From Aurantiacibacter aquimixticola (GTDB taxonomy: Bacteria > Pseudomonadota > Alphaproteobacteria > Sphingomonadales > Sphingomonadaceae): a stretch of 64,000 nucleotides of DNA. The DNA is taken from the NCBI RefSeq assembly GCF_003605475.1, contig NZ_RAHX01000001.1, positions 1,364,001-1,428,000 on the forward strand. The letters are read 5' to 3'. The notes beneath the pieces were generated by a model that was not told the DNA's origin, did not search any database, and worked only from the letters and a program-made list of their open reading frames with translations. The position numbers and the translations under genes are program-made. This document shows, in pieces, positions 6,225-36,361 of the stretch (positions are counted from its first letter, which is position 1; every line of letters starts with the position of its first letter).

Positions 6225-6259
6225 CTTTTCAATGACTTAGAAGAGATGGTTTGGATTTA

Positions 6260-17785: not shown

Positions 17786-18489
17786 TGGTCGAGACAATCG
17801 AAATCGCTGACTTGTCGATCGCAGTGACTCGAAAGGCAGTGAAGAATGTCCACCTTTCGGTTCATCCTCCGGAAGGTCGCGTCACACTCGTTGCACCGAC
17901 TGACACACGGATCGAAGTGGCTCGCGCCTACGCCATTACACGCCTAGGTTGGATACGAAAGCAGCAGGAGCGATTCCGGGACCAAGTTCGCGAGTCACCG
18001 CGGCGGTTCGTGACACGCGAAAGCCATCATCTTTGGGGAAGACGTCACCTCCTGAAGATCGAAGAGCACGAAGGTCGACAAGGTGTGACTGTTGGCCACC
18101 GAACCATCCACCTTCGTGTCAGGCCTGGGTCAGACACATCAAAGCGGGCCGAAATCATTCATCGATGGCACCTCCGTCTTTTGCACCAAGCCCTGCCGCC
18201 CATAATTGAAAAATGGGAGCCTCGTTTGAGCGTAACCGTCGAACGCTACTTCCTCCAACGAATGAAAACGAAGTGGGGCAGTTGTAACGCTGTGCAGCGG
18301 ACGATTAGATTGAACACCGAACTCGTGAAGAAGCCCCGCGACCTACTCGAATACGTGGTGGTGCACGAAATGATCCATATTCTCGAACCAACCCATAGCC
18401 CGAGATTCTTCGAGCTTCTCACAAAGAACTATCCGAACTGGGCCGAGGCTCGCCTAGAACTGAACGAGCTTCCGGTCCCTGCGATGTAG
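17785..18489 (+). CDS. YgjP-like (DUF45) metallopeptidase linked to type I RM
   Basis: A 234-residue protein with the zinc-metallopeptidase signature HEMIHILEPTHSPRFFELL (about residues 192-210; HExxH plus downstream H), preceded by the family motif MKTKWGSCN. YgjP/DUF45 proteins are frequently encoded beside hsdR. Here the start overlaps the hsdR stop by one base (TGATG), so it is the fourth gene of the hsd operon. The role is unknown; control or clearance of the restriction complex is a reasonable inference from linkage, but no cleavage substrate is established. It ends 96 bp before the convergent WYL gene. Confidence 0.88.
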   Translation: MVETIEIADLSIAVTRKAVKNVHLSVHPPEGRVTLVAPTDTRIEVARAYAITRLGWIRKQQERFRDQVRESPRRFVTRESHHLWGRRHLLKIEEHEGRQGVTVGHRTIHLRVRPGSDTSKRAEIIHRWHLRLLHQALPPIIEKWEPRLSVTVERYFLQRMKTKWGSCNAVQRTIRLNTELVKKPRDLLEYVVVHEMIHILEPTHSPRFFELLTKNYPNWAEARLELNELPVPAM

Positions 18490-18584
18490 GCAAAGAGCTT
18501 TTTGGGGCGAGATTGTTTTCGACCTGCTCGAAGGTCGCGATCAAACTTCTTTACGAGAGCAGGATCAAGCGGTGTCAGCCTCGC

Positions 18585-19607
18585 TCACAATCTGTCGCTT
18601 CGTTTCTGTTTATCCTTGGGCTGCATAGGAGCGGTCACGGCCAACTCCGCCAATCTCAACCGCTCGCGCATCACTTCCTCCAATTCCTGAGGCGCCTCGA
18701 TGCGAACCTCGCCGCCCCAAGTGAACAAATGTTCGGCTATTTCGCGCAATCCTCCCGAGTGGAAGCGAACCACGACTCCATTACCGTCCGCCTCGATGCT
18801 CTGGTGCGGATGGAAACGCCAACGCCGGGCGCGCTCAGCACTTTCGGGACCGACCCTGAGAACGATATCGTGGCCTTCCTCGCGCCAGATGCCGAAGCTG
18901 CGGCCCATCCATTCGTCGAGGTCCCAGTTTTCTTCTGGAGCGCCGGGCTCCTCGCTCGCGCGGACTTCACTCATTCGGTCGAGGCGGTAAGGGACAGGGT
19001 CGAGATCGCGGTCCGGCAGCTTGCCGATAAGGTAGGTCACCGAACCGTGTATGAGGCCGAAGGGAACGACCCGGCGCCATTTCGGCCCGTTCGCGCCTTC
19101 CGCCCGGTAGTCGAATTCGACGCAGCACCCCGCCATGATGGCGCCTTGGATGCAGGCGACCGTCTCGGGGGCGTTTTCGATCATCGGGCCGGCCGGGACA
19201 TGATGGCGCTGCAGGCGGACCAGCGGATCGAGATCAGGTGCCATGCGGCTCTTCACCTCACGCCTGAGCCCCGCCTGCACCTTGGCAACCAAGCTTTCGA
19301 GCAGCGGCGCCTGAGCAGAGCCCGCCCGCCGTTGCGTGGCAGCGAGCGATTGCAAAGCGGCAATCTCAGCGACGTTTGGCTGCGTGAAAGCAGAGTGCAA
19401 CGAGCCCGGTATGCGAAAGCGCTTGCGGCGATCCTCGACTATCTCCTCGAGGTCGAAATGGATGAGGATGAGATCGCGCAGCCGCTCTGCGGTGCGGCGG
19501 TCCGCGCCGATTTCTTGGGCCATCTCATCGAGCGTCAGGCCCTCAGTGCTTTCGCTGAGTGCCTTGACGAGAGTTAGCAGCCGGTCGAGCTTCGCCATGC
19601 GCGCCAT
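18585..19607 (-). CDS. WYL-domain transcriptional regulator
   Basis: A 340-residue protein with an N-terminal winged helix-turn-helix (LDRLLTLVKALSESTEG through GADRRTAERLRDLI, about residues 7-47) and a central WYL domain (about 140-220; FDYRAEG, VPFGLIHGSVTYLIG). A WCX-like C-terminal part follows (RFHPHQSIEADGNGVVVRF). WYL proteins of the BrxR/CapW type sense nucleic-acid ligands and repress defence operons. It is the last gene of the ten-gene - strand array, 7 bp after mcrC, so autoregulation of the array is the natural hypothesis. A second ATG at 19598 is possible. Confidence 0.9.
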   Translation of the reverse strand: MARMAKLDRLLTLVKALSESTEGLTLDEMAQEIGADRRTAERLRDLILIHFDLEEIVEDRRKRFRIPGSLHSAFTQPNVAEIAALQSLAATQRRAGSAQAPLLESLVAKVQAGLRREVKSRMAPDLDPLVRLQRHHVPAGPMIENAPETVACIQGAIMAGCCVEFDYRAEGANGPKWRRVVPFGLIHGSVTYLIGKLPDRDLDPVPYRLDRMSEVRASEEPGAPEENWDLDEWMGRSFGIWREEGHDIVLRVGPESAERARRWRFHPHQSIEADGNGVVVRFHSGGLREIAEHLFTWGGEVRIEAPQELEEVMRERLRLAELAVTAPMQPKDKQKRSDRL

Positions 19608-19614
19608 TGGTTGG

Positions 19615-20958
19615 CTACTCCACTAACGTCGGCATAGGCGCTGTAGCGTCGCCTGACGGCCGGCGGGAAAGCATTTTAGCACAGAGCCGCGCAAGTGATT
19701 CCGTTAGGTCCGCTTCCTTCAGGGCCACGTCCACCGACGCGATCCGCAGGCACTCACTGCCACCCACGATACCGAACCGGGCACGCTCGCCTAATTCTTC
19801 ACCCGGGCGGCTCGGATAGAGTAACATCAGCTCCTTCGTGCGGTAGAGCCGCGCATAGGCCATCAGCTGGTAGACGTCGGATTGGCTAACGCCGTGCTTT
19901 CGGTCGAGCGGGTCGGAGCCGAGCTTCTTCCACTTGGTGTCGACGATCGCGCAGGTCTCGCCGCCGCGGCGCAGGATAATGTCGGGCTTGGTGCTAAACA
20001 CGTTCCCAGTTTCAAGATGCTCGCCGGTGAAGGCGCCGAGGCAGGCGCGATGCCCGCCCTGTTCCACCAATTCGATCCCGCTCCCGACAAGCGCGCGGCG
20101 CAGCAGCACCGCAACGTATTTCTCGAACAGATCGTTCATCGGGAAGAGTAGCGTGAGGCCCTCAGGTGCCTCCGTATCATGATGAGTCGCCTGCCAGTCG
20201 CGTTGGAGCAGCAGCCTCGTCAGACGGAACAGCGCCGCCCAGCGTCGGTTCGTGCGATCGATGCGGACTTGTGTCCACGGCAGGCGATTGACCGGCACGA
20301 GGGGAATGTCGGCAAGCGTGCAGCGCAGCTCGTCCAGCTTGCGCCGAGTAGCGTGCGAACGTGCATGCCCGGCGAGGAACACAACCGCCGCCGCCATCAC
20401 GCGCATCAGGGGCGTGTCCGACTCTAACTGGTCGAAGCGGCAGGCTAGCCGGTCGGGCCGCACGGCGTTACGTGTAAACTGGCGGGTCACGTCGAGCCGC
20501 CCGCGCAATGCGGGCAGATCGTCCTCGCGCGGGACATAGGCGCGCGGCAGGCCTCGCCGCACCTCCGCCAAGAGGCGCGTCGCAAACGCATCGATAAGGA
20601 TTTCAAGCAGACTCGTCTTCTGTCGCGCGATCGCCGCCTCGCTCCCGATGCCGAGATCGAGACCGAGCGCAACATCGAGCATCCGCACGAGGCGATGCCG
20701 GACAGTGTTCTGATCCTCGGCCGCGTCTTCAGGATCGACCTTGGGCAGGATTTCAAGACTGGAGCCCTTCGCCGAAACGATTCCAACCATTTGGCGCGCG
20801 ATCAGCCGATCGCGGCCCAACACCATGATGTTGGTCGCATCCTCGCGGGCCAGCGGATGCGCGCAAGCAGCGGCATGAAGCGCATCAGCACTCTCACGCG
20901 TCAGGCCGTTCTCGCCGAAGCGCGCGTGCCCCCACTCGTGCAGCGTCAGGTGAGTCAT
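19615..20958 (-). CDS. mcrC: McrC-family nuclease subunit of McrBC-type restriction system
   Basis: A 447-residue McrC-type protein with an N-terminal helical/beta domain (LTLHEWGHARFG) that contacts the McrB motor. Its C-terminal PD-(D/E)XK nuclease shows KPDIILR followed by IVDTKWKKL (Asp near residue 325, DTK near 339) and a downstream YQLMAYARLY helix. ATG at 20958 overlaps the upstream stop (ATGA); the frame runs on to 21033 but that part has no family resemblance. It cuts DNA when assembled with the McrB-like GTPase two genes upstream. The catalytic residues are intact. Confidence 0.92.
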   Translation of the reverse strand: MTHLTLHEWGHARFGENGLTRESADALHAAACAHPLAREDATNIMVLGRDRLIARQMVGIVSAKGSSLEILPKVDPEDAAEDQNTVRHRLVRMLDVALGLDLGIGSEAAIARQKTSLLEILIDAFATRLLAEVRRGLPRAYVPREDDLPALRGRLDVTRQFTRNAVRPDRLACRFDQLESDTPLMRVMAAAVVFLAGHARSHATRRKLDELRCTLADIPLVPVNRLPWTQVRIDRTNRRWAALFRLTRLLLQRDWQATHHDTEAPEGLTLLFPMNDLFEKYVAVLLRRALVGSGIELVEQGGHRACLGAFTGEHLETGNVFSTKPDIILRRGGETCAIVDTKWKKLGSDPLDRKHGVSQSDVYQLMAYARLYRTKELMLLYPSRPGEELGERARFGIVGGSECLRIASVDVALKEADLTESLARLCAKMLSRRPSGDATAPMPTLVE

Positions 20959-21698
20959 GGAGCGAATGCCACCTGCATCGCGCGTGCGTGGTCGGCGGCC
21001 GCGCCGCTGATGGCCGAAAGCCATCCGCGCCACGAGCAGGTCGCGAAACCCACCCGGTCACCCGCCACTCTTACTTGGAGGTCTTCGATCTCGCGGCGAT
21101 GCTGAAGGAAATCGCCGTCGGATATCTCCATTCCGCCGCCCGGTTCGGCGAAAAGATAGAGCAGAACAGGTTCGAGCCCCTCGCGGCTTGCTTGCGTCGC
21201 AATGCCGAGTGCGTGCTTGACGAGCTGCGCCGCATCTAGGTGGCGATATCTTCGGGGCTCGGCGCGAAGCAGGTCGCGCATGGCCCGCCAGCGGGACATC
21301 CCGTCGCCCCAGACATCACGGTCATAGGCCTCGGACAGTTCTGCGGGTTTCGCGCCGCGAAAAGGCTCGTATCGCTTGGACTCGACGCCGATCAGATGCG
21401 TCTCGGTCCAGACGGCGGCATCAAGCCAAGGGTGTCGTCCGCCGCTCCACGGAAATCGCATCTCGCATTCGATACCAACCTTGACAGGGCGGCCGGATAA
21501 ATCGGCGAGCGGCGGGAAGGCAGGCAGTTCACTGGGCCGCTCCAGGAACCATCCGAATCCGTTGGCCGCTAGCGCCGCGCTGCTCTGCGGATTGGCAAAC
21601 TTGCCACTGGCGATCTCATTACCTGCCGCGCGTTCGAGTATTGCGCGAACGCGGTCTTCAGGAACGCCCGGCAAAAACAGAGGGTTGCCCTCGCTCAA
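20955..21698 (-). CDS. PD-(D/E)XK restriction-endonuclease-like protein (PGN_0703-like)
   Basis: A 247-residue protein inserted between the mcrB-like and mcrC genes. A PD-(D/E)XK core is visible: E near residue 76 (GIECEMRFPW), WLDAAVW (Asp near 92) and GVESKRYEP (ESK near 104-106). The layout resembles the PGN_0703 family of putative restriction endonucleases, from memory. It starts with TTG overlapping the mcrB stop (TTGA) and its stop overlaps the mcrC ATG, so it is tightly coupled to the McrBC unit. An additional nuclease in that position is unusual. It may give a second cleavage activity or modify target choice; function not established. Confidence 0.75.
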   Translation of the reverse strand: MSEGNPLFLPGVPEDRVRAILERAAGNEIASGKFANPQSSAALAANGFGWFLERPSELPAFPPLADLSGRPVKVGIECEMRFPWSGGRHPWLDAAVWTETHLIGVESKRYEPFRGAKPAELSEAYDRDVWGDGMSRWRAMRDLLRAEPRRYRHLDAAQLVKHALGIATQASREGLEPVLLYLFAEPGGGMEISDGDFLQHRREIEDLQVRVAGDRVGFATCSWRGWLSAISGAAADHARAMQVAFAP

Positions 21699-24694
21699 GC
21701 GACGACCTCCGCTGAGATCGCGCCGGACGGCTTTCGCTTTACCAAGCGAGAGTAGGCGCCTTCTTCGAAGCTATCGAGAACACGCCAGCTCTTCAGCGGC
21801 TCGCTGCCCTCGCCCATTGGATCCTCAATGGTCTTGCATTCGAGGAAATTGCCGCCCTTATCCTTCTCGCCAAGAACCGCAGCCAGGCGGTTCCAGTCTT
21901 CAAAGAAATATTCCTGGAGAAGCGGGATGACCTTGTCGCTCATGACCGCGTCAACTTGCGGCTTCGTTTTGCAGCCGATGAAGAAGGCATGGCCAATCCG
22001 GTGGTCGCGATCGACGAGGTATTCGATCCGCTGGTTTATTGTCTCAAGCACCTGCGCGAGCGGAAGGCCGGTTGCCTTCTCTGCTTCCAGGAAGGCCTCG
22101 ACCGAAGTATCGGGAGCCATCTCCTCGAAGCGGAACCGGCGGCGCAGCGCGGTGTCGAGTAGCGCGATCGAGCGGTCGGCGGTGTTCATCGTGCCGATAA
22201 TGTGCAGGTTCGCGGGCACACCGAATTCGCGCTTGGAATAGGGCAACCGGACCTTGAGCGCGTTCGGCATGCCGAGCCGTTTGTCCGGTTCGATCAGCGT
22301 AATGAGCTCGCCGAAGACCTTGGAGATGTTGGCGCGGTTGATCTCATCGATGATGAGGACGTGGGGGAGGACGTCTCCTTCTTCCGGATTGTTATCGTCG
22401 ACCTCTTGCGGGCCGCTGTTGAGCAATCGCTCAAGGACCTGAAGATTCAGCCGCCCGCGAGGCAATTCGTAGATGGTATCGAGGCTGAAGCGTTTGTCTG
22501 GGCTGAGTTCGCCGACAGGCACGCCGTCAGGATCGCTCCAGACCCAGGAGACTTTTCGTCGATGAGTGTAACGCCCATCGGGGCGCGGGGCGTATTCGTA
22601 ATCGCCTTCAACGATACCGATTGCGCGAAAGGCATTGAGGCCCTTCGAAGCGACAATAACATCACCGATACTCAGCTGATTCCGGAACCGGTCCGGTGAT
22701 TTGACCATCCCCATCTGCGGGGTAATCCGTTCATCCGGAAAATGGCGCTCCAATTCAGCCTGAACCTCGTCCCGACTCGTGAAACGCTCATCGCTCCAAT
22801 CCACATCCCGGAAACCGAACATCGCATATCCTTGTTCGAGGGAGTCTTCGAAAACCCATGCGCTATGCGGGTCGTTCGATTGCCCCAAGGACATCTTGAA
22901 AATCTTCCGACCCTCGAGAGAGATTCCATCTTCATTGCGACGCACACGCGTCTGGGCGCGATCGGCAATGCGGGCGAAGAGACCGCTTTCCGCCTTGAGG
23001 CTGAAACCGCCACTTTCGCTCGGACCGTCCGTGTCGGGCCTGAGCCCTTCGATGAATTCCTCGTAGCTGAAGCTCTGGTGGAAGGTGACCATCTCGACCT
23101 GCCGCGCATCGACGAGTTCGCGATAGCGCTTCATCAATGCCGCGCGGCCTTGGGCGTCTTCCCCATATTCGACCGAACCATCGCACAGGCGCACTGCCTC
23201 CCGGGCCGTGCGATAAGTCTTGCCAGTGCCAGGCGGGCCGTAGAGGATCAGGTTGGTCGGTTGCACGATAGTGTCCTTACTTTCTGTTGGCGCACCAAGA
23301 AGACGGTCACGCCAAAAGGGGTCGTTCAGAAACCAGTCGTAATCCTGTTCTTCCCCATCGAGTAGATAACGTCGCAAGCGATCGGCAGACTCTTTCTCGC
23401 TCGGATCGCGCAGGCGCCAAACGGCATGGTTGCTTGTATAGAAATACCAGGTGCGAGGCTCATCCCACTGCTGCCACTCTACCCCGACGCGTAGCCCGTC
23501 TTCGCTCATCTCGGTGATGGTGCCTTCCGCGCGGAAGCGGTTTGCAGTGACGATGCCTCCTTTGGTATCGAACGGGAGTTCGGTCGCACGGGGCACGAAA
23601 TCTTTAAGGAAGATGCGATCGCCTATCTGCATCTCACGCACGCGCCGGTTATTGGCGCTGCCTGTGTCGGTGAGAAGGCTCCATTCGCCACGCTCGAGGA
23701 AACGCGGCACGCCGTCTTCTTGGCCCCAAAGGGAGGTGACTAACCAAATAGGCACGGGGTCTAGTTCGCCGGTGCCTGACTTGTCGCCAGACTCACTTTC
23801 GTAACGTTCCACCAGCTGAGACAGAACTTCGGCGTTCGGAACTTCGATCTTGCTGACTTCCCGTGGGTTGGGAACGTCGTGTCGCAGACGATGTGGCAAG
23901 TTCGAATTCCGGGACTTTTGCGAAGGGTAGTCTGTGACGGTCACCTGCTGCACAGACCAATGACCATATGAGCCTTCAAGCCAAATTTGCGTTCGCGCTG
24001 CTTCGAGATCCAGCGCGAGCTGCCGACCATCTTCGAGCGCGAACGACGCAATCTTGTTCGTTTGTCCGATCGGCTCGCCCAGGCTTTCCCGTAGCGTGCG
24101 CAGGGCCCAATAATCTTCCTTGGCCAAGTCGAACACGAACCGGGTCGCTGTGCTCATGTCAGCACCGAAGCTTTGCGGCGGCGGCACATCTGCCATTCCG
24201 TGGAACTTGCGCCCCCGCATGGCCTGACAAATATTCGGCCAAGCATCATTCAGACCGAGAGCATCATTCACATCCTTTACGACCAGTTCGGCGCTCTGTC
24301 CGTCCCGCTCACGGGCGGGCTCGATATAGTTCTCGAGGACGAACCGCCGAATCCGATCAGCATCGTTCGCGCTTGCATGGCCGTCGAGGAATTGGCCATA
24401 TTGCATCAACCAGCTACGCCAATTCGAGAGTCTGTTTCTCGGTTTTTCGGACTCAGGCATGAGGACGCGGAACCGCTCACCGCCACTGTCGAAATCCGTC
24501 CTTAGTCTCGAAATCGCTTCACGAATGTCTGCGAAGCGGTCCGCCTCCCAAGCTGCTTCGAGGTCTGGGTAGTGAAAGCCCAGATCGGCCAATTTTTTCT
24601 CGATTGTTCTCACCGCATGGACGCGTGTATTGCGTCCGCTTTCGGTATTCGCCCCGTTCGTTTCGAGCCAATCTCTGAATTCGCTTTCCCTCAC
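21695..24694 (-). CDS. McrB-like AAA+ GTPase with EVE-like domains, one inside the motor
   Basis: A 999-residue protein. Residues about 1-290 are a helical N-terminal region; about 315-430 form a PUA/EVE-like beta module (PIWLVTSLWGQ through YTSNHAVWRL). Walker A YGPPGTGKTYR lies near 480, Walker B HVLIIDEINRANISKV near 780, and the McrB signature GTMNTADRS near 838. About 300 residues separate Walker A from Walker B, and this insert contains a second EVE-like module (HSAWVFEDSLEQGYAMFGF through ERLLN). EVE domains read modified bases, so recognition of modified phage DNA is inferred. GTG at 24694 is preferred: it overlaps the upstream stop and has GAGGAGGGAGG upstream; an ATG at 24718 exists but overlaps more. 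Confidence 0.88.
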   Translation of the reverse strand: MRESEFRDWLETNGANTESGRNTRVHAVRTIEKKLADLGFHYPDLEAAWEADRFADIREAISRLRTDFDSGGERFRVLMPESEKPRNRLSNWRSWLMQYGQFLDGHASANDADRIRRFVLENYIEPARERDGQSAELVVKDVNDALGLNDAWPNICQAMRGRKFHGMADVPPPQSFGADMSTATRFVFDLAKEDYWALRTLRESLGEPIGQTNKIASFALEDGRQLALDLEAARTQIWLEGSYGHWSVQQVTVTDYPSQKSRNSNLPHRLRHDVPNPREVSKIEVPNAEVLSQLVERYESESGDKSGTGELDPVPIWLVTSLWGQEDGVPRFLERGEWSLLTDTGSANNRRVREMQIGDRIFLKDFVPRATELPFDTKGGIVTANRFRAEGTITEMSEDGLRVGVEWQQWDEPRTWYFYTSNHAVWRLRDPSEKESADRLRRYLLDGEEQDYDWFLNDPFWRDRLLGAPTESKDTIVQPTNLILYGPPGTGKTYRTAREAVRLCDGSVEYGEDAQGRAALMKRYRELVDARQVEMVTFHQSFSYEEFIEGLRPDTDGPSESGGFSLKAESGLFARIADRAQTRVRRNEDGISLEGRKIFKMSLGQSNDPHSAWVFEDSLEQGYAMFGFRDVDWSDERFTSRDEVQAELERHFPDERITPQMGMVKSPDRFRNQLSIGDVIVASKGLNAFRAIGIVEGDYEYAPRPDGRYTHRRKVSWVWSDPDGVPVGELSPDKRFSLDTIYELPRGRLNLQVLERLLNSGPQEVDDNNPEEGDVLPHVLIIDEINRANISKVFGELITLIEPDKRLGMPNALKVRLPYSKREFGVPANLHIIGTMNTADRSIALLDTALRRRFRFEEMAPDTSVEAFLEAEKATGLPLAQVLETINQRIEYLVDRDHRIGHAFFIGCKTKPQVDAVMSDKVIPLLQEYFFEDWNRLAAVLGEKDKGGNFLECKTIEDPMGEGSEPLKSWRVLDSFEEGAYSRLVKRKPSGAISAEVVA

Positions 24695-27600
24695 TTGCCT
24701 CCCTCCTCGATCACCCATGCAAGGGTATTCACCAATTGTAGATGATCGACACTTTTCGCGTCCAATTCCAGTAGCTTCGGATTAGCTACAACGACCGCCA
24801 ATGTCCTAGCACGGCTGATTGCCACGTTGATGCGGTTCTTCGAATAAAAGAACTCGACATGGCGCGGCAGGTCGTCCGGGGTCGACGTCGCGAGTGATAC
24901 GATCACCACCTCAGCTTCTTGACCTTGGAACTTGTCGACTGTGCCCACGCGCGCTTCGGCGGGCAACGCAGCCGTGAGTGCATTCACCTGCATGTTGTAA
25001 GGTGCCACGATCAGGATGTTCTTCCACCCGATCTTGCCGGTCTTACCCGCACGATCAGTGTATTCAGTCCCGATCAGACCTTCGGCCAGTTCTTTCACCC
25101 GTGATACTTCAGCATCACTTCGCTGGCCGCAGCCGGTGTGATCCATCGCCACGAAGCGGATCCCGCTATCGGCGAGCACGGGATCATGGCCAGACTGCAA
25201 ATGGAGCCGCTGGCGCGCGCAATCGGGATGAGCTTTGAGCCGTCCATCATAGACCGCGTCCGAGATGAAACCACAAATCGAGGGATGCATACGCCAACTG
25301 GTATCGAGCAGGATTCCTCGGTCGGGTGCGACAGTGGCCTCGCCCTGCAACAGATAATCCAGCGCCGAGAGGCCACTCTCGCCCGGATGAGCGCCTTGGA
25401 TGGGCTGGGCCAGCTGCATCTGGTCGCCCACGAGCACGATATTGCGTGCTGCCGATCCCATCGCCAGCAAATGACCTAAGGATACCTGTCCAGCCTCATC
25501 CACGAACAGGTAGTCGAGCGTCTGATCGAAATCGCTATCGGCAAACAGCCAAGCGGTGCCGCCAATCAGATCAGGCATGTAACCATGCACATCAGCGGCT
25601 TTCTCAATGTCGGTTATGATTCGGCCATTGAGCCGTTGCTCGTCATTTCCATGCGTGCATTTCTTCACGCCGACGAAGCTGAGTCCAGTCTCATCCGCGA
25701 CATCCTCTACTTTGGCTAGCAGGTTGTTGATCGCCTTGTGACTGTTGCTGGAAACGCCGACCTTCTTGCCTGCAGCGAGCAACGAGCAGATCACGTGCGC
25801 ACCTGTGAAGGTCTTGCCTGTGCCCGGCGGTCCTTGGACAAATAAGGTCGTGCCATCCATCGCCAAACAGCGCATGGTGGCGGCTTCGATCAGGCTTTCG
25901 CCATCTTGGACTAGCGACAAACCATTCCAGCTGAGCAATCGCGGCGCTCTTCTTTCGATGATATCGAGCAGCGCGCTATAGGGTCGCTCGTCCGCCTCTT
26001 CCACCGGGGCAGGAACGCCGTTCAGCCACTCCTCTTCCGCCATACCTGCCCAAGCCAGCGCGACCCGGCGAACGGCGGCAACCAGAATTTGGTTCGGCAC
26101 AGTCGGCTCGGGGATCAGTGAGCCTTCCAATGGCCAGACCCCTTTGGCTGCGTTGCCTCGCTTGATTTCGACCGTGCCGGCTTCGCAATCGAGCGCTACG
26201 ATTGTGCCCACCTTCGAAAGGCTCGGCGCATGAAGGACCACCGATCCTTCCCGAAGTTTCGTCTCCTGCGGCGCAAACCGATAGCTGGCGATGGTGCTGC
26301 GCTTATCTGGTCGTTGCCAAATTCCCTCTTCATCGGGGTCTGGCACGATCCCTCCGATACACTCATGATCTTCTGCGAGCTCATCCGGATCACGCTCACA
26401 GCGGTCGAACATGGCCCAAAAGGCCGGCTTATCGGCTCTGCGATGAAACTGCGTGAGGTGTCCGACTAGCGCCCTACCTTCTTCGCTTTCCGGCAATGTC
26501 CCGGCTTTGATGGCCGTGAGTAGCCTCTGGGAGCGCACCTCGGCTTCAGCGCGTGCTTCTGCTTTTTCATCGGGAACCGCCGTAGCAGGACCAACTGGTC
26601 GCCACGGCAAATCCTTCATGCGCAATTCTACCAGCCAGTCGCGCAGTGCCTCGGTATTTTCGCAATCCACCTTATTGTATTCGAGGATGCCGTCGAGGAT
26701 CGCCTGTTCGTTGGTTTTTTGCCAGCTTTTGTATTCAACAACAGACTGGTCAGCCTTGGTCACATCGCCCTGCCGCGCTTCGGCAAAGAATATCTCCATC
26801 GTTTTCAGCGACAGGTTGTCTTCGCTTGTTCGGATAGCCTGCCTCAAGACACCATAGAGATCGACGAACCTCCGTTGGCGCAGCAAATTGTCCAGCAGTT
26901 CTTCACGGCTGGCATGAAGCGTGGATAGGCGGCGGAGCGCCGTAATCTCGTAAGGGGCATAGTGGTAAACGTGCGCGCCGGGATTGGCCTCGAGATGCGC
27001 GGCCATCCAGTCTATCGTGCTTTCGAAAGCAATTCGTTCGTCAGCGTGGTTATGCCCCCACCGAAAACGGAACTGCGGACTGGATCCGTCGCGATAGTGC
27101 ACGCCCCACAGGTAATCGAGCCCGCCCTCTTCCAGCGGATCACCCTCAAGGTCGAAAAACAGGTCAGCGGGGTCGGGTTGCGGGAGGTTGGCAAAGCCCC
27201 TGCCTTCCTCAATCGGCAAAGGCTCGGCCACTGGCTCTCCGCCCTGCCAGCGGGTCTGCTGAATTCGGGCCTGCGCACGCAATTTGTCGAGGGTGGCGGG
27301 CGCGAGGCGGGGGATGCGCTGATCGTCCGGAAAAGAGGCGAGTTGCGCGACCGTGGATACGCCAGCCGCCCGAAGTTTTTCGATCTGTGGCTTGCCTATC
27401 CCGCACACGCGCGAAAGGTGGTCCTCAGCTTCCCAGACCTCAGCACAATGGTCTCGCCACGGACAAAGGCCGCACGCTGCACAGGGCTCCGGCTCGCTTT
27501 CCTCTGCCCCACTTTCCACGAAAGCGAGGAAGCGGGCGATAGCGGCTCCGAGCACTTTATCAAAGTCAACCAAACCAAAGCTCTCGCGTCGCCCGTCGCC

Positions 27601-28113
27601 CAGTTGGACATGCGCACGGCGCGGTGCCTTGCCCTGGATCGCGGCAATCATTCGCGCATAGAGGCCAAGCTGCACCACGTGGCTCGCCTTGGCCGAGCGC
27701 GCCAGCTTGGTGTCCACCGGTTCGTAGGACCAGTCGCCAAGGTTAGACGGCTTATCTACCCGGATCAGGAAATCGGCGAAGCCGCTCCATGGAGGCTGCA
27801 GAAAGGCAGCTTGGAATATTGCCTTCGCGCCTTGTTCCATGGCCTCCCTTGTCCGCAATGCGCGACTTTCCAGCAAGCCTTTCTCGGGTATCTCGACTAA
27901 GCCCCCTTCATCCGCAAGCTGCTCACGATAGGCATCCTCGTGCTCAAGCCCCGCCTGTTGCACAAGCTTGCCCATGGCGTCGTCTTCGGCCTGTTGCGGG
28001 GCAGCGTCAGGCTCTCGTAACCGCGCCAGGTCGAGTGCGGTGGCATGGGCACAGCCTAGATAGCGGACAAGGTCCGACGGTGAATAGAGGATGGCGTTAT
28101 CGAACTGACGCAT
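24691..28113 (-). CDS. TM0106-type RecB-like nuclease fused to SF1 helicase
   Basis: An 1140-residue three-part protein. A RecB/Cas4-like PD-(D/E)XK domain occupies about residues 80-235 (FADFLIRV, YEPVDTKLA, QLGLYARM), with a cysteine cluster CAACGLCPWRDHC near 215 suggesting a 4Fe-4S site. A DnaQ/RNase-H-like domain follows (DLFFDLEGDP, about 310-500). The C-terminus is a Dna2/Upf1-type SF1 helicase: Walker A VQGPPGTGKTF near 755, Walker B LFVDEAGQ near 871, GDQMQLAQPI, and DKFQGQEAEVVIVS. It probably unwinds and degrades DNA ends. Its stop overlaps the McrB-like start (GTGA), linking it to the restriction genes. Confidence 0.9.
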   Translation of the reverse strand: MRQFDNAILYSPSDLVRYLGCAHATALDLARLREPDAAPQQAEDDAMGKLVQQAGLEHEDAYREQLADEGGLVEIPEKGLLESRALRTREAMEQGAKAIFQAAFLQPPWSGFADFLIRVDKPSNLGDWSYEPVDTKLARSAKASHVVQLGLYARMIAAIQGKAPRRAHVQLGDGRRESFGLVDFDKVLGAAIARFLAFVESGAEESEPEPCAACGLCPWRDHCAEVWEAEDHLSRVCGIGKPQIEKLRAAGVSTVAQLASFPDDQRIPRLAPATLDKLRAQARIQQTRWQGGEPVAEPLPIEEGRGFANLPQPDPADLFFDLEGDPLEEGGLDYLWGVHYRDGSSPQFRFRWGHNHADERIAFESTIDWMAAHLEANPGAHVYHYAPYEITALRRLSTLHASREELLDNLLRQRRFVDLYGVLRQAIRTSEDNLSLKTMEIFFAEARQGDVTKADQSVVEYKSWQKTNEQAILDGILEYNKVDCENTEALRDWLVELRMKDLPWRPVGPATAVPDEKAEARAEAEVRSQRLLTAIKAGTLPESEEGRALVGHLTQFHRRADKPAFWAMFDRCERDPDELAEDHECIGGIVPDPDEEGIWQRPDKRSTIASYRFAPQETKLREGSVVLHAPSLSKVGTIVALDCEAGTVEIKRGNAAKGVWPLEGSLIPEPTVPNQILVAAVRRVALAWAGMAEEEWLNGVPAPVEEADERPYSALLDIIERRAPRLLSWNGLSLVQDGESLIEAATMRCLAMDGTTLFVQGPPGTGKTFTGAHVICSLLAAGKKVGVSSNSHKAINNLLAKVEDVADETGLSFVGVKKCTHGNDEQRLNGRIITDIEKAADVHGYMPDLIGGTAWLFADSDFDQTLDYLFVDEAGQVSLGHLLAMGSAARNIVLVGDQMQLAQPIQGAHPGESGLSALDYLLQGEATVAPDRGILLDTSWRMHPSICGFISDAVYDGRLKAHPDCARQRLHLQSGHDPVLADSGIRFVAMDHTGCGQRSDAEVSRVKELAEGLIGTEYTDRAGKTGKIGWKNILIVAPYNMQVNALTAALPAEARVGTVDKFQGQEAEVVIVSLATSTPDDLPRHVEFFYSKNRINVAISRARTLAVVVANPKLLELDAKSVDHLQLVNTLAWVIEEGGK

Positions 28114-28188
28114 TCGCGATTACTCCTTGCGAACGCGGTAGCAGTCTGCTGCGACAGAAACGGTCGGTTGTGAAAAAGAATGCTGGCA

Positions 28189-30225
28189 TTAGAATCCCAT
28201 AGAAGATTTTTCAAACCCACGGCCTTCTCGTTCTTCGATCAGCCATTTTGCGAGAACCTTGGGATCCTTCTCTGCCAGTAGTTTTGCCCGCTTGCTGACG
28301 AGAAAATAATCTCCGGGCGTCGTGCCAGCAACCGGCAGCCTTGCAGGTGCATGGAAGCCAAACCATCGCTTGAACTGCGCTCGTGCTCGATGCTCATCGA
28401 GCGGTTTGAATTTGGCACCAACAGTAAATCTGCGCTGCGTCGCCGGATCGAAATCGTCCGCTAGGTTGGTCGTCGCCACGAATGGCGCTTTCAATGCATC
28501 CATCTGGCGGAGCATCTCGTTGACCATGCTGCGTTCCCACCCTCGCTGGGCGTTTCGGCGGTCAGTGAGGAAATCATCCGCTTCGTCGATCAGCAACAGC
28601 CCCTTGCAGCGTGATGCCTCTTGGAAGGCCGCGGCGATGTTAGCTTCGGTTTCACCTACATACATGCCGAGTAGGTCTGAGCCGCGCCGTTCGACGAGTT
28701 CGATCTGGAGCCGTTCGGCCAGATGGCGGGCGTAGGCACTCTTGCCAGTTCCGCTCGGCCCCGACAGCAGTAGACTCCAGTCACGATCCTCGGACGCTTC
28801 GAGCCGGCCGGCCAGCGCGTCAAGATCACGGTCCGCCACCGCGAGAGCGGGATCATAGGTCGGTGGCAACGCCACGGGGCTCGGGGCTCGGCCCGTGATC
28901 GCGGTCACCAGACCTTCTCCGATTGCTAGAGCCTGTTCGAGAGTGCCCCCTGCCTCCTTCGCGCCTTTCACCGCCGACGCAAGAACGGCGGGAGCAGCAG
29001 GCAGAGAGGCGAGACGATGCCTGTCATTTTCGGACAGCTTCAACTTTGCTTTCTTCGCGTGTAAATCGACAATCCGTTGCCGCACCGCGAGCGACGGTTT
29101 CGGAAATTCGATTGCAAGCGACATGCGCCGGATCAGCGATTCCTCGAAGCGCCACAGATCGTTCACGATCCAAATCGTCGGGCGATCTCCGCCCTCGATT
29201 AGGCCATTCAGGAACTGTTTAGACCGGCCGCCACGGTCTTCCAGAGCCCCCAGCTGCAGCACGTCGTCAGCCTCGTCCATCACCACAACACGGCCCGGTT
29301 CTCCGCTAGTCAGCGCCCGCAACAAGGTCAGGTGCGCCAGCCTCTCGCGGCGGTTCGGTTCCCGGCCGCTCTCATCCTCCATACCGGCAAAGACGGCACG
29401 CTTGCCCGTGCGGGAAGCGAGCAGCCTGGCAAATTCCGTCTTCCCGGTTCCCGGCGGCCCGTAGAGCAGAATTGCGCATCCCCTTGCCGCTCCGACGAGT
29501 GTCTCTGCAATTTCTCGCTGCGGCCCAATGTGGTCGAAGTCACACCAGGCAAGCGTCGATGGCTTGGCAACCGGCATCAGCTGCCTTGCCAAGCGGGAAG
29601 GCGGCGATCCCGATTTTGCGACCCGTTGCAGGAAATTGTTGGCTGAAACCTCTCCGTCGCGGTCGTTGTCGACAAGACCGGTGCTCCACAGCTGCGCTCC
29701 AACCGCCAAACGGTCCTCCACCTTGAAGAGGGGGAGATCGTTCAGAAATGCGATCTTGCGTGCAGACGGGTTGTGCCCCCCACCGGGCAGCGCCCGGATC
29801 AGCTTGTCCCATTCATCATGCGTGGAACACCGCGCAAGCGTCAAGATAATTGCCCGCTCAATGGCGTCGAGCTTCAGCATCTTCGCCAGCCAGTCGATCC
29901 GGCGATCAAGCGACGTGCGCTTTATCGTTCTACCTCTAGAATTGCCCCTGACCAGCCGACGCAGCAAAGGGGGATACTGCTGACTGGTGAGCAGCTCCCA
30001 GTCCTCCTCGTTATCGAAAACCTTGTTCGCAGGCTCGGCGTTCGTCCATGCTTCCAGCAGCTCCGAACCGCACTTGCGAAGCTGCTGATCGGACATCCGG
30101 CTGACCACGTCACACCATGTCTGCGCGAAGAGCCTAGCTTCTTCGTTGGAAGAAAAGGACGTTTCGGATCGGCGGTGGCTATGGCGGTGGCGATGCCTCA
30201 AGCGGTGGAGTTCTGATTCTGTCAT
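28189..30225 (-). CDS. Double-AAA ATPase with His-rich N-terminus
   Basis: A 678-residue protein with two AAA modules. The first has LLYGPPGTGKTEF near residue 257, VVVMDEADDVLQ near 310 and an Arg-rich second region of homology (ESLIRRMSLAIEFPKP). The second has LLSGPSGTGKSAY near 490 and LLLIDEADDF near 545, with ATTNLADDFDPATQRRF downstream. The N-terminus carries HRLRHRHRHSHRR, which may bind metal or nucleic acid. The layout recalls CDC48/ClpA-like unfoldases, although neither clan is certain. It lies 75 bp upstream of the RecB-helicase gene and is read as part of the same transcript; a chaperone or remodelling role is inferred. Confidence 0.85.
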   Translation of the reverse strand: MTESELHRLRHRHRHSHRRSETSFSSNEEARLFAQTWCDVVSRMSDQQLRKCGSELLEAWTNAEPANKVFDNEEDWELLTSQQYPPLLRRLVRGNSRGRTIKRTSLDRRIDWLAKMLKLDAIERAIILTLARCSTHDEWDKLIRALPGGGHNPSARKIAFLNDLPLFKVEDRLAVGAQLWSTGLVDNDRDGEVSANNFLQRVAKSGSPPSRLARQLMPVAKPSTLAWCDFDHIGPQREIAETLVGAARGCAILLYGPPGTGKTEFARLLASRTGKRAVFAGMEDESGREPNRRERLAHLTLLRALTSGEPGRVVVMDEADDVLQLGALEDRGGRSKQFLNGLIEGGDRPTIWIVNDLWRFEESLIRRMSLAIEFPKPSLAVRQRIVDLHAKKAKLKLSENDRHRLASLPAAPAVLASAVKGAKEAGGTLEQALAIGEGLVTAITGRAPSPVALPPTYDPALAVADRDLDALAGRLEASEDRDWSLLLSGPSGTGKSAYARHLAERLQIELVERRGSDLLGMYVGETEANIAAAFQEASRCKGLLLIDEADDFLTDRRNAQRGWERSMVNEMLRQMDALKAPFVATTNLADDFDPATQRRFTVGAKFKPLDEHRARAQFKRWFGFHAPARLPVAGTTPGDYFLVSKRAKLLAEKDPKVLAKWLIEEREGRGFEKSSMGF

Positions 30226-30267
30226 GCGCCTCTGATATGTGCGAGGTGCGACAGAACTGGACGCAAC

Positions 30268-31395
30268 CTAGCTAACGATCTTTCGCTCAAGCAGGAATGG
30301 GCGAAGCACTGCAGCCTTGCCGGCAACCCAAGAGACGATTTCGCCGCCACGCGCATCTGGATCGGCAGAAAATGCGGACAGGCTCTCGATCGCAAGGAAA
30401 TCACTAGCTGGGCGCAGAAACCCTTCTGGCGCGTCCTTCGTCATGGTAAAATAGTCGTCGTCTCCGTTAAAAAACCCAACGTAGACGTGCGGGCCGACTA
30501 GATCACGGCCGATCTCTTCGCTGTCATACCACGAATCGAGTTCTGGAAACCAAACTCCAGTCTCAATATAGCTCCAGCCGCTTGAACTGTTCGGTGCAGA
30601 TAGCGCGTATCTATGAGCATTCACCGTCCCATAATCGGGATCAGCCTTAATTCGATAGCTCGCCGTCTTACCACAGGCGGCAATTCCCGCTGCCTCTTGC
30701 CACATCCGATCAACTAGATTCTCCAGACTGGCCGCTTGCGAGACATACAACTGAGCGGACGATAGAGCGACCGCATCAGGAAACTCGTTGCTCATGTTCT
30801 GATCCCTCAAATATCTTGAAAAAGCCCGCGAAAGACCAGCAGCAAAATGATCTTCAGCCAAATCGGCAGTAAGGGCCTCTATCTTGCGGGCAACAACACC
30901 CCAAGTGGAGTGACAACGGGAGAAGTCGTGGTAAAGACTTGCAGACGCTTCTGCTGTGAAGTCTCTCGGTGGTGGAGTCAGATGCGTGATAAAAACCAAG
31001 GCCCTCGGCATGTCACAATCTTCGCCGTGTTCTTTTAGCCAATCAGCATACGCGCGAAGCTGATGAATTTGCACTCCCTCATTCTCTCGCTCGGAGACCG
31101 CATGACCAACCTTATTTTCGAATAGAATCCAAGGCTGACCATTGAACTTTATGAGCATGTCTGGACGGCCATATTTACCCGCGTGATACTGTGTGAGAAC
31201 TTCGATCTCGCCAGCATCGACGGCAACTGAGATATCACGATCTGCCCTTGTGAACTCCTTCAGGAGCTCAGCCAGGACCTGCGACGGCAGGGATCTAATC
31301 GTTGCAGCCAAACATTCCGTAGTCCAATCTTCAATCGGGTCCTTGTTCTCGCGCTGTCGATACGCAAAGAGATCAATGAATAGGTCATTATTCAA
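30268..31395 (-). CDS. PD-(D/E)XK nuclease family protein
   Basis: A 375-residue protein whose N-terminal half has a clear PD-(D/E)XK core: GRPDMLIKFNG (Asp near residue 79) and WILFENKVGH (ENK near 93-95), followed by the helix IHQLRAYADWL. This matches the PDDEXK_4 type. The C-terminal half is a beta-rich domain containing many aromatic residues (YVGFFNGDDDYF) that could be a target-binding region. It begins with TTG overlapping the DUF2779 stop (TTGA), so it is coupled to that gene, and lies 42 bp upstream of the AAA gene. Codon use is less GC-rich than its neighbours, suggesting separate acquisition into the array. Confidence 0.85.
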   Translation of the reverse strand: MNNDLFIDLFAYRQRENKDPIEDWTTECLAATIRSLPSQVLAELLKEFTRADRDISVAVDAGEIEVLTQYHAGKYGRPDMLIKFNGQPWILFENKVGHAVSERENEGVQIHQLRAYADWLKEHGEDCDMPRALVFITHLTPPPRDFTAEASASLYHDFSRCHSTWGVVARKIEALTADLAEDHFAAGLSRAFSRYLRDQNMSNEFPDAVALSSAQLYVSQAASLENLVDRMWQEAAGIAACGKTASYRIKADPDYGTVNAHRYALSAPNSSSGWSYIETGVWFPELDSWYDSEEIGRDLVGPHVYVGFFNGDDDYFTMTKDAPEGFLRPASDFLAIESLSAFSADPDARGGEIVSWVAGKAAVLRPFLLERKIVS

Positions 31396-32876
31396 GTTCG
31401 GTTCTCCAAGGCCCTAGCGATCGTGACCATCGCCCACGTATCTCTCGCACAATACGCTCTTAGGGCATCCGATAACGCCCCACGCCGCGCATCACTGCAC
31501 GCTTGGTCCGCCGCCTCATGCCACGCCATCTGCGCGTTCCCGCCATCTTTGACCTCGAGCGTAGCATAATCCAATTCGGGCGCGATCGTCGGCAGGACAG
31601 CCTTGATCGACCAGCTTCCACGCTGATCCCTGTGATACCAGTTGTTGCGTGTGACGGGCAGGAGATCGACAGTCGCTTCCGCCTTAGCCAGCAGCGACTC
31701 AGCCAAATCCGGCTCCCACCCGGCCAAATCACGCAGCACACGGCGTTCGAATGGCGCATAGTAGGCGACGATGGTCGCATCGCTCGGAATCATCTCGACC
31801 AGCGCCTCGGCACAGGTGCGGCGCGGATCGCTGCCATCGCAGCTGAGGAATTCGTGGTGCGTGATCGTCCCGTCTTCCTGTTCCAAATGGAGCGAGAACT
31901 GGAACGGGATCTGCTGATATGGCCGTGTGCCAATCCATCTCGGAACGGCAGGTGCGATGGTTTCGAAATCGAGCCAGGCCCGCGGCCAGCCCCATCCTGC
32001 AATTTCCCGGCGCGCACCTTCAGCATTATGGAACGGAACGCCGTCGCGTGTAGCGGCCAAGATCTGCGCGTTGGTGCCACTGAGGTCATCCGGCGAGAGG
32101 TCGAGCAGGTTTTCGATGCCTTTCGTCTGCCATTTTTTGCCGCCTCCGCGCGGAAGGACGGTAACCGGCCATTTGGGCCCTGACGGCAGGTCGCGCCCGC
32201 AATAGGCCGCGAATTCGCATTCGAACGGCGATGAGCAGTGATCGCCCATCTCCAGCTCCGGTTCCTCGCCCGCGAGCACAGCTCTTGCCTGCTCCACCAG
32301 CGCGGCGCGACCGGCTATCGTGTCCTCCAGCTCGTCCAGCAGATCGACATCGGTGAACAGTCCGGCGTAATCGCCCGCCCGGGTCAGTTCGAATGTCTTG
32401 TCGATGTGCCGGATCGCCGCACTTTCCAGCTCTAGGCCAGCTTCGCGCAGGGCCCACACTTGCGTCGCAAGATCTCCGCGATGGTAGTCTTTCACCCCGG
32501 TCGAGCTCTTCACCTCAGCCGCGCGCCACGCATTGCTCTCGGTTCGCTCAAGCACATCGACGCGCACCAGAACGCCCTCATGCTGAAAAGTGGCTTCGAA
32601 GATCGGGCCGGGATGCCCCTCGCCGAGCAGGCGCGTCGTGGCAGCAAGCGCGGCCGTCAGGTCAGGCTCCGCTTCAACCATCACTCCTTGAGGATGCAGT
32701 GCACAGGCAATCTCCCCCACTTCGTTGCCACCGGCAAAGCGCATCTCGGCGCCCTCGTCATGTTGCGCGAATTCGGGTCGGTGGACCGACAGCCACAGTT
32801 TCTTCGGGCACTGCTCGAAGGACGTGATGCGGGACTTGGAAAGGCCGTAGCGGCGAGGAGCGTTAGTGTCGTGCAT
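31392..32876 (-). CDS. DUF2779 nuclease (Cas4/RecB-like plus DnaQ-like domains)
   Basis: A 494-residue protein. The N-terminal part has SFEQCPKKLWLSVH (about residues 15-28), LVRVDVLER and AAEVKSSTGVKDYHR (Glu-Val-Lys near 120), with a later cluster CSSPFECEFAAYC (about 214-226), the pattern of Cas4/RecB nucleases carrying an Fe-S cluster. The C-terminal DUF2779 part begins WLDFETIAPAVP (about 300), a DEDD exonuclease-type first motif, and continues with YYAPFERRVL. ATG at 32876 is chosen over the GTG one codon earlier. The domain plan parallels the RecB plus RNase-H half of the 24691-28113 protein, without a helicase. Single-strand or end-processing activity is inferred. Confidence 0.85.
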   Translation of the reverse strand: MHDTNAPRRYGLSKSRITSFEQCPKKLWLSVHRPEFAQHDEGAEMRFAGGNEVGEIACALHPQGVMVEAEPDLTAALAATTRLLGEGHPGPIFEATFQHEGVLVRVDVLERTESNAWRAAEVKSSTGVKDYHRGDLATQVWALREAGLELESAAIRHIDKTFELTRAGDYAGLFTDVDLLDELEDTIAGRAALVEQARAVLAGEEPELEMGDHCSSPFECEFAAYCGRDLPSGPKWPVTVLPRGGGKKWQTKGIENLLDLSPDDLSGTNAQILAATRDGVPFHNAEGARREIAGWGWPRAWLDFETIAPAVPRWIGTRPYQQIPFQFSLHLEQEDGTITHHEFLSCDGSDPRRTCAEALVEMIPSDATIVAYYAPFERRVLRDLAGWEPDLAESLLAKAEATVDLLPVTRNNWYHRDQRGSWSIKAVLPTIAPELDYATLEVKDGGNAQMAWHEAADQACSDARRGALSDALRAYCARDTWAMVTIARALENRT

Positions 32877-32938
32877 CACGCCCTATTACAGAATAGCCAC
32901 GTCAAATATGGTCGTGCCGGGTCTGATTTCGCCACCCC

Positions 32939-33796
32939 TCATTTTAGTGACGCAAGAAAACTGGTCGGCGAAAGCGTTGCGTGAGCGTCCAGAGGGGGCC
33001 GAAGCGAAAACGCCTTGGGCTGACGAGCGAAATCCCAAAGCCGAACAAGGTGCCAGTGATCACGTCGATCGTCAGCCACGGCAAGTTCGTTTGCGCTAAG
33101 GTGGAAGGGTGTCCGTTCCCACCCGTTAGTTGTTTTCACCTCCAGCAGCCGATCGGAACCATCCGGCTCGAAACTGGAAATATCGTAGCCATAACCATCT
33201 CCGTCCTCCGCCGATGTCCAACGCACCTTGCGAGCGAGGTCAGCCCTCCCCGCAGATTCAAGCCGTGCTCGTTCGTGCACAAGCATTTGCTCTTCGCCGG
33301 CTTTGCCCAAGGCGCGATTACGAGCGTCGCGTTCCGCCACGTCGTATTTCAAACCAATCTTGGCCATGAATTCGGCGTCCACGGGGGGTGGCTCATTCCG
33401 CTGCGAGGGAGCGGGACCGAATTCGAGCAAGGCCTCGGTCGGCGGGCCTATCCAATTCGCTGCCGCAGGGTCTCTTAGGCGCGATTGATTTTCTCGCGGA
33501 GCAAGCCAGTCCTCATTGCGATCCAGCCAGCGCAACACTCCATCAACTAAGGCATTCTGGAAATTAGCCGCCGGTTTGTAGCCTGGAATCCATGGCTGAC
33601 CGAGACCGAGCAGGACTGCGCTGATATTCTGATGTTTGAACTCAATCGAACCTCGCCCGCGCCCGATCCTCTTCTGTAATCCCCGATTGTGCGCGGCCTT
33701 ATTGTAACTAATTCCTGCGATGTCGTCTGTTAGCATCGCGAAGTAGTCCGCAACGGCAGCATCGATCTCCGGGGCAGTCCAGTCCTCGCCCGCCAA
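32939..33796 (-). CDS. DUF3883-domain protein
   Basis: A 285-residue protein. The C-terminal DUF3883 domain is clear: ALGKAGEEQMLVHERARL, GYGYDISSFEPDG and RLLEVKTTNG (about residues 165-225), then HLSANELAVA and HWHLVRLWDF. The D...ExK arrangement resembles PD-(D/E)XK-like folds, and DUF3883 occurs in McrBC, DISARM-like and other defence loci. The N-terminal 90 residues (AVADYFAMLTDDIAG, IEFKHQNISAVLLGLG) form a separate helical domain that may bind DNA. It starts with TTG 5 bp after the HEPN stop; no in-frame ATG precedes it. Function in the array is not known. Confidence 0.8.
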   Translation of the reverse strand: MAGEDWTAPEIDAAVADYFAMLTDDIAGISYNKAAHNRGLQKRIGRGRGSIEFKHQNISAVLLGLGQPWIPGYKPAANFQNALVDGVLRWLDRNEDWLAPRENQSRLRDPAAANWIGPPTEALLEFGPAPSQRNEPPPVDAEFMAKIGLKYDVAERDARNRALGKAGEEQMLVHERARLESAGRADLARKVRWTSAEDGDGYGYDISSFEPDGSDRLLEVKTTNGWERTPFHLSANELAVADDRRDHWHLVRLWDFARQPKAFSLRPPLDAHATLSPTSFLASLK

Positions 33797-33801
33797 GCCT
33801 C

Positions 33802-34500
33802 TTACTCTTCAACCACTGGATACATCGGCATCGCCCACTCGGCATCCGGATTGTCCATCATTAGGTCTATGAACACAGGCAGCAAACAGCCAAGCAGGGA
33901 TGCCCCGTCTCGCACCTGGTTGCGGTTGGCGCTGCTGTCCCAAGTGGCGCCGCCGTGCACCAGCTGGTTGCGCAACACGTAGAGGCGATCGAACAGGATG
34001 GAGAGGACGATAGCGGTGTCCTTCTCAGCAAGCGCACGGTTGGCGGCGCGCTTGGCACTGTCGAAACTGACTTCCCAACCGGCCCCGCCAAATTCCCCAG
34101 CATGGTGCTTCCAGAACGGAGCGAAGACATACTTATTGTCCATCAGCAGGCGGATTTCCTGGCTGAAGCGCTCCCAGATGACGTTGTAGATCCGGTTACT
34201 CGAATCCATCTCGACCAGGGTCGCGAAGAACTGGTCGAACCGCTCCCGCTCGTTTCCGGCCCTGCCCTCACCGTCAAGCGCGCGGTCCAGATCACCGGCG
34301 TAAGCGGCATTGAATCCGATCCACAAAAGGATGAAGCGGACGTCGAGATCGTCCTTTTCATTCTCCGCACGTCTCAGCCAGCTCAGCGCTCTATGGACAC
34401 GCAGCGTAAGTGGCAGCGGAAAAGCATCGCGCATTTTGCGCTGCTTTTGCTTGAGCATTTCGGGATCAAGCGAATTTTCGGACTGAGGAATAGTCTTCAT
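33802..34500 (-). CDS. HEPN-domain-like protein, first gene of the array
   Basis: A 232-residue, mostly helical protein. RNQLVHGGATW near residue 173 fits the HEPN ribonuclease motif R-x4-H, in the expected late helix after LSILFDRLYVL. The N-terminal helices (RVHRALSWLRRAENEKDD, FILLWIGFNAAYAG) match the Apea-like HEPN class. HEPN proteins are often RNA-cleaving effectors in abortive infection or toxins. It opens the ten-gene - strand run, 5 bp before the DUF3883 gene. The 170 bp upstream should hold the array promoter, but no strong -10/-35 pair was seen. Ribonuclease activity is inferred from one motif. Confidence 0.7.
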   Translation of the reverse strand: MKTIPQSENSLDPEMLKQKQRKMRDAFPLPLTLRVHRALSWLRRAENEKDDLDVRFILLWIGFNAAYAGDLDRALDGEGRAGNERERFDQFFATLVEMDSSNRIYNVIWERFSQEIRLLMDNKYVFAPFWKHHAGEFGGAGWEVSFDSAKRAANRALAEKDTAIVLSILFDRLYVLRNQLVHGGATWDSSANRNQVRDGASLLGCLLPVFIDLMMDNPDAEWAMPMYPVVEE

Positions 34501-34670
34501 TCTTTATTGCTAGCAACTTCAGGACGCTTCACCAGAATGCCCCCATATTGATTTGACAGGTATCGATTTGCTCTCAGTAGCCGAAAGTATGTCCTCTCAT
34601 ATCCGAACACGGTATTTGACCGCCGCCGGTGAATCAAACACCCTGCTTCTTTAAGATTGGGAGCGCGAAA

Positions 34671-35183: not shown

Positions 35184-35186
35184 GAA

Positions 35187-36299: not shown

Positions 36300-36322
36300 A
36301 TCAGCTCTCCGTTCGAGCATGA

Positions 36323-36355: not shown

Positions 36356-36361
36356 TTTTAG

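Follow-up and report, generated by a model that had tools for sequence, protein, structure and literature searches.

Does a long run of same-strand genes that includes McrB and McrC encode one defence system or a set of separable ones, and what holds its members together? The question is raised by an array of ten genes in a 64-kb stretch of DNA (the window), which a preliminary description had read as a single system built around McrBC, with several systems stacked in one transcript as its alternative.

Organization of the array

The ten genes are arranged head to tail on the minus strand with overlaps or gaps of at most 75 bp, and their open reading frames (from 34500 down to 18585) agree with the layout first described. 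From the upstream end, these are g10 (33802–34500), a 232-aa HEPN-like RNase; g9 (32939–33796), a PD-(D/E)XK-like DUF3883/NOV_C protein (NOV_C, 4e-19) that matches the PADLOC candidate profile PDC-S36 at 1e-117 (residues 1–284 on profile positions 1–279 of 280); g8 (31392–32879), a Cas4/RecB-like nuclease with a DUF2779 exonuclease domain (PF11074, 2e-41); g7 (30268–31395), a 375-aa PD-(D/E)XK-like nuclease in an exchangeable slot; and g6 (28189–30225), a tandem AAA+ ATPase with CDC48/p97-like modules (AAA, 8e-38, two stretches). There follow g5 (24691–28113), which contains a RecB-like nuclease (TM0106 RecB-like, 2e-80), an RNase_H_2 exonuclease (4e-25) and a UPF1/DNA2-type SF1 helicase (AAA_12, 5e-29); g4 (21695–24718), a McrB-type GTPase with an NxxD motif and an exchangeable N-terminus (AAA_5, 1e-16; PRK11331 McrB, 3e-36); g3 (20955–21698), a REase-ARP-like PD-(D/E)XK nuclease (PF22558, 7e-8); g2 (19615–20958), an McrC composed of DUF2357 and a PD-DxK nuclease (PF10117, 6e-70); and g1 (18585–19607), a WYL/WCX regulator (Pfam WYL and WCX) with matches to DriD structures.

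The junctions include gaps of 5, 59, 42, 75 and 7 bp and four 4-bp stop-start overlaps: TTGA (g8/g7), GTGA (g5/g4), TTGA (g4/g3) and ATGA (g3/g2). These overlaps, also part of the preliminary description, are present once two start codons are shifted; the g5/g4 overlap requires the GTG at 24694, instead of the ATG at 24718, as the g4 start, and the g3/g2 overlap requires an McrC start at 20958 in place of 21033, where the longest ORF begins.

The family labels first proposed hold by profile for eight genes, and those of g10 and g7 come from motifs. Neither of these two has a Pfam match at 0.01. The g7 label derives from its RPD...ENK motif, its PDDEXK_1 match being weak (E 0.046). HEPN RNases are defined by an Rx4–6H motif, which g10 carries as R177/H182, kept in 22 of 22 homologues; its label is based on this motif (RNQxxH in all 22 sampled) and on the NCBI names of its plasmid homologues. 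The predicted g10 model is all-helical and of modest quality (mean pLDDT 70), and a fold search with it gave no match at E 0.001.

Catalytic residues were compared in 3 to 38 homologues per motif (locus L037 left out). Every sampled homologue that has a residue at the position concerned keeps the catalytic one, for the motifs of HEPN, DUF3883, DUF2779, RecB, RNase H, helicase, McrB, REase and McrC alike. McrC D351, D365 and K367 are kept in 28/28 homologues, g3 D93, E106 and K108 in 9/9, the g4 GTPase motif NTAD (NxxD) in 28/28 sampled McrB proteins, the g5 residues in 37/37 and 38/38, the g7 motif in 3/3, the g8 motifs in 18/18, and g9 D205, E219 and K221 in 8/8. The exception to full conservation is the Walker lysine of g6, present in 28/30 homologues for the first AAA module and in 34/34 for the second. 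Comparison of the window with two relatives gives dN/dS values of 0.05–0.20 where dS is unsaturated; three pairs with the relative L002 are saturated.

A tRNA-Val island

The array is located within a 31.5-kb island at tRNA-Val (CAC; 6149–6223, plus strand, ARAGORN), which also carries a type I restriction-modification (RM) system. The left attachment repeat (6177–6234, plus strand) is the 3′ part of the tRNA gene, and this 58-bp segment is 96.6% identical to the right repeat (37666–37723, plus strand), a copy of the tRNA-Val end. A tyrosine integrase (36362–37531, minus strand; PF00589, 6e-9) adjoins the right repeat, and a 94% identical homologue is next to the array in locus L004. The type I genes HsdM, HsdS and HsdR (10934–17785, plus strand) are assigned by Pfam.

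Between the array and the integrase (34671–36320, minus strand) are an XRE/IrrE gene (PADLOC RmrA, 7e-25) and a 170-aa partner of no known family. They are perhaps a RosmerTA-like pair. Elsewhere on the island, a gene at 7726–9489 (plus strand) encodes a 587-aa protein with no Pfam or PADLOC match.

Genome G590 has the same island with its type I genes and lacks the counterpart of window bases at about 19.7–33.7 kb, with the WYL, DUF3883 and HEPN genes left as fragments. In L070 (9141–10067), the same island in another genome, the type I RM system is kept and most of the array is gone, a natural deletion.

Linkage of the array families across genomes

A survey of 346 genomes of the order (thresholds: g5, E 1e-100; HEPN, 1e-10; McrC, PF10117; DUF2779, 1e-30) found g5 in 28, HEPN in 14, McrC in 38 and DUF2779 in 21. 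Co-presence and proximity were tallied by hand. The g5 and McrC families occur together in 13 genomes (within 10 kb in 12), g5 and HEPN in eight (six within 10 kb), HEPN and McrC in seven (all within 15 kb), HEPN and DUF2779 in seven (all within 20 kb), DUF2779 and McrC in ten (nine within 20 kb), and g5 and DUF2779 in seven (six within 20 kb). Expected co-presence is 0.9 to 3.1 genomes (hypergeometric P 5e-7 to 6e-4, kinship ignored), and linkage of these families beyond chance is supported.

Five families (WYL, HEPN, g5, McrB and McrC) are found together in nine loci: the window, L002, L004, L037, L039, L040, L035, L077 and L111, a count that is not a rate because the plasmids were chosen by hand. 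Two of these loci are plasmids of Aminobacter (L035) and Leisingera (L077), and L002 is a contig of genome G514, from the same family as the window (that of Qipengyuania marisflavi). In most of the nine, g5 meets McrB with small gaps or overlaps. Loci L038, L101, L103 and L114 repeat or overlap others and are excluded from the counts; L037, from a strain distinct from that of L004, is additionally excluded from the McrC tree and the later locus family table, in which the gene caller missed the McrB of L004.

The members also occur apart. McrBC is one cassette, absent from many loci that hold other array families; no McrC lies within 10 kb of g5 in 16 of the 28 genomes that carry it, many g5 loci are without McrBC, HEPN and WYL, and the HEPN, DUF2779 and AAA+ genes are each also found alone. 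Among 215 genomes of the class, five in addition to the window contain g5: L111 has McrBC, WYL and HEPN with it, and the other four have none of these. Linkage to g5 is spread over several lineages of the McrC tree, requiring at least 7 changes, 6 of them forced by well-supported branches; shuffles were as low in 34/500, giving no single clade and no clear clustering. Distant relatives of the tandem AAA gene are present in 10 of 384 other genomes of the class, and the 11 loci around them contain a WYL gene in six (tblastn) and other array families in none. Viral contigs, scanned with each of g4 and g5, yielded no relatives.

These patterns bear on whether the array is a plain defence island, in which unrelated systems are stacked by chance in a hotspot and the WYL protein serves its neighbour only, or nothing. 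Solitary HEPN, DUF2779 and AAA+ genes, the type I RM system and RmrA-like gene on the same island, and the composite arrays on tRNA-inserted elements described in the available text of PMC12458937 are as this reading would have them. However, the same families are repeatedly co-located in differing orders and on differing replicons, and boxes at cassette starts (below) exceed what a shared hotspot would lead one to expect. We regard it as rather unlikely.

Swaps and a probable mosaic structure

The tight spacing and the four stop-start overlaps would suit one integrated ten-protein restriction machine expressed from a single transcript, as would the largely shared gene order of L002, L004 and L037. 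However, among the fetched loci all ten families are present in the window alone: L002 is without g3 and has an ADP-ribosylglycohydrolase gene between g6 and g5, L004 and L037 are without g7, and L040 is without g9, g7 and g6. Genes are thus swapped, lost or solitary in relatives, and the single ten-gene machine, which we judge highly improbable given also the predicted box sites within the array, was rejected as the account of this locus. The gene-order check proposed at the outset divides, with the families co-located beyond chance and the complete set, among the fetched loci, confined to the window.

From the integrase to g5, L004 and L037 share 96.0% identity across 13.4 kb, and a 3.5-kb segment at the other end is 88.4% identical; the two arrays are near-identical, yet their McrB N-termini are unrelated. 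The N-terminus of L037 is instead shared with the window (94% over residues 9–309). In the g7 slot beside the AAA+ gene, L004 and L037 both carry a different PD-(D/E)XK-like gene that resembles g7 weakly (E 0.002). The exchanges of the McrB N-terminus and of the g7-slot gene have clean borders. In L003 a DNA-ligase-like gene group stands where DUF3883 would be. Relative to L004, dS varies along the array from 0.18 to 0.76, a spread that fits a mosaic.

The first 200 residues of McrB may constitute a widely shared reader domain. Residues 8–200 of g4 (window 21695–24118 region) are 52% identical to the N-termini of AAA ATPases on Klebsiella plasmids. The swapped PD-(D/E)XK slot of L004 and L037 also includes a 248-aa candidate ORF on the strand opposite to the array (L004 9193–9939). 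On a Croceicoccus marinus plasmid (L032/L114), g5, interrupted by an IS5 element, adjoins McrB and an McrC that lacks annotation (56% identical), and two WYL genes lie close by. A SNF2-type helicase of about 1050 aa recurs with a 460–620-aa partner beside McrC, DUF2779 or WYL genes (L042, L035, L055, L083 and L099), and this pair is probably another cassette.

The WYL regulator and predicted operators

Protein g1 matches DriD structures 9pfq and 8tp8 at 3e-64 over residues 3–321 of 340 and by sequence is a full-length DriD homologue, with a predicted wHTH-3HB-WYL-WCX architecture. The available text of PMC12340889 names 9PFQ, 9PFV, 9PGA and 7TZV as DriD and describes this Caulobacter protein as an ssDNA-binding activator that recognizes ATACGAC-N7-GTCGTAT and activates a divergent operon. 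Among the seven structure matches at E 0.1 in the searched set, none carries the name BrxR; BrxR structures are deposited in the PDB, according to PMC9122601.

A search for a common palindrome before WYL and HEPN genes gave nothing convincing before the DriD consensus was applied. The GAC-N7-GTC core is present in 12 of 21 divergent WYL intergenic regions and in 22 of 322 control divergent regions (Fisher 2e-8), and the 13 other spacings tested occur in 0–3 of the 21. Upstream regions of HEPN genes contain it in 2 of 23 cases, and that in the window has none. The N7 spacing was tested after a weak excess in partly the same regions and in light of the DriD paper; the held-out test is cleaner in this respect. 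With a matrix built from 12 of 13 WYL sites and a cut-off of 17 bits, 25 of 44 held-out sites are near array-gene starts, whose share of the length is 3.6% (P 5e-25), and 19 are elsewhere; distant control loci contain one operator site in 362 kb. In relatives, operator sites are found ahead of DUF2779, the AAA+ gene and g5, and in L003 there is one ahead of the swapped-in ligase gene.

The window has three predicted DriD-type operators on the minus strand. The first, in the g6/g5 gap before g5 (28149–28169), has an exact GAC-N7-GTC core and scores 14.3 bits, the best in the 64 kb. The second, in the g7/g6 gap before g6 (30246–30266), scores 9.5 bits with one core mismatch; its counterpart in L004 and L037 reaches 22.2 bits. 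The third, in the g9/g8 gap before g8 (32897–32917), scores 12.7 bits with one core mismatch, and 19.5 bits in L004 and L037. These scores are weak when compared with five shuffled 64-kb windows (maxima 7.9 to 13.8 bits) and with other places in the window (up to 12.7 bits), so the argument is carried by position and not by score: the three best predicted sites of the array fall exactly in its three widest gaps (75, 59 and 42 bp).

Scans of 18400–36400 for sigma-70 promoters (5 found, 5.7 expected) and terminators (18 found, 17.4 expected) were at chance level. The location of the predicted operators, inside the array at cassette borders, suggests that it may not be one transcript. The alternative first offered, several systems stacked together, is the better fit, though possibly with more than one transcript.

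Relationship to known systems

McrBC type IV restriction is represented here by an NxxD McrB GTPase beside an McrC with DUF2357 and an intact PD-DxK nuclease in one operon, and g4 and g2 have the GTPase motifs and intact McrC nuclease expected of McrBC. The arrangement differs in that g5 is directly upstream and overlapping, an extra REase gene lies between McrB and McrC, and a WYL gene follows. CoCoNuT superoperons, in the available text of PMC11090510, likewise combine McrB and McrC with HEPN and a helicase of the UPF1/DNA2 type, in some cases within long arrays on one strand, but they are defined there by an NxD GTPase signature and have CARF/RtcR control, whereas here control would be by WYL and g5 has RecB and RNase H domains. 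Membership was ruled out by the NxxD motif (NTAD) of g4, shared by all 28 sampled McrB proteins.

The Caulobacter DriD regulon, as given in the accessible part of PMC12340889, has a homologous WYL activator, the GAC-N7-GTC core and a divergent layout that is found in many of the relatives here, whereas the predicted targets here are nuclease cassettes on mobile elements. BrxR-controlled islands, in the part of PMC9122601 available, similarly have a WYL regulator beside mosaic defence loci including type IV restriction, but BrxR is described as a repressor and the best structure matches of g1 are DriD. The ARMADA, Druantia and Zorya arrays of PMC12458937 are also conserved multi-system arrays on tRNA-inserted elements; they consist of other genes, and the available text reports no WYL box chain. 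Arrays on tRNA-inserted elements, McrBC and WYL-controlled islands are all of known kinds; we regard the predicted chain of DriD-type boxes over defence cassettes as new. A search of the open literature, with subscription journals mostly outside it, found no description of this gene set.

A proposed composite locus under DriD-like control

We think it somewhat probable that the array is assembled from cassettes into a mobile, composite defence locus with ssDNA-responsive, DriD-like WYL control. Four putative cassettes can be delimited: A, HEPN–DUF3883; B, DUF2779 with the exchangeable PD-(D/E)XK gene; C, the tandem AAA+ gene; and D, g5–McrB–REase–McrC–WYL. A predicted DriD-type box stands before each of cassettes B, C and D. 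Both regulation by the WYL protein and an anti-phage function of the array are inferred from sequence.

In the proposed mechanism, the WYL protein would act like DriD and bind ssDNA arising from phage replication, incoming plasmids or damage, and the ssDNA-bound form would activate cassettes B, C and D, with possible positive feedback since the WYL gene is the last of cassette D. McrBC would cut modified foreign DNA by way of its exchangeable reader domain, and the nuclease-helicase g5 and the Cas4/DEDD-like enzymes would degrade the products. HEPN, with no box and outside the regulon, may cut RNA as a backstop.

The same control could instead serve a DNA-damage or repair regulon, in which a DriD-like protein governs nucleases and helicases that mend DNA and phage defence is secondary. 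DriD runs a DNA-damage response according to the available text of PMC12340889, and g5 resembles DNA2 and g6 CDC48. However, the families are patchy (g5 in 28/346 genomes), are located on islands and plasmids, and keep company with McrBC, HEPN and PDC-S36. This pattern suggests conflict more than housekeeping, and we consider a repair regulon very unlikely.

A further proposal within the composite-locus reading, to which we give a little less than even credence, is that an ssDNA alarm of the DriD type controls a series of swappable cassettes, each with its own promoter, for which the box is the entry ticket, with McrBC one member and HEPN outside. It touches on how dangerous nucleases are silenced until needed and how defence islands exchange parts. 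The WYL, HEPN, nuclease-helicase, McrB and McrC genes form a defined unit on conjugative plasmids and chromosomes of several orders. If the proposal is correct, many unrelated nucleases would be induced by one sensor of ssDNA from phage replication, plasmid entry or damage, and new cassettes would be able to join by means of a short DNA box.
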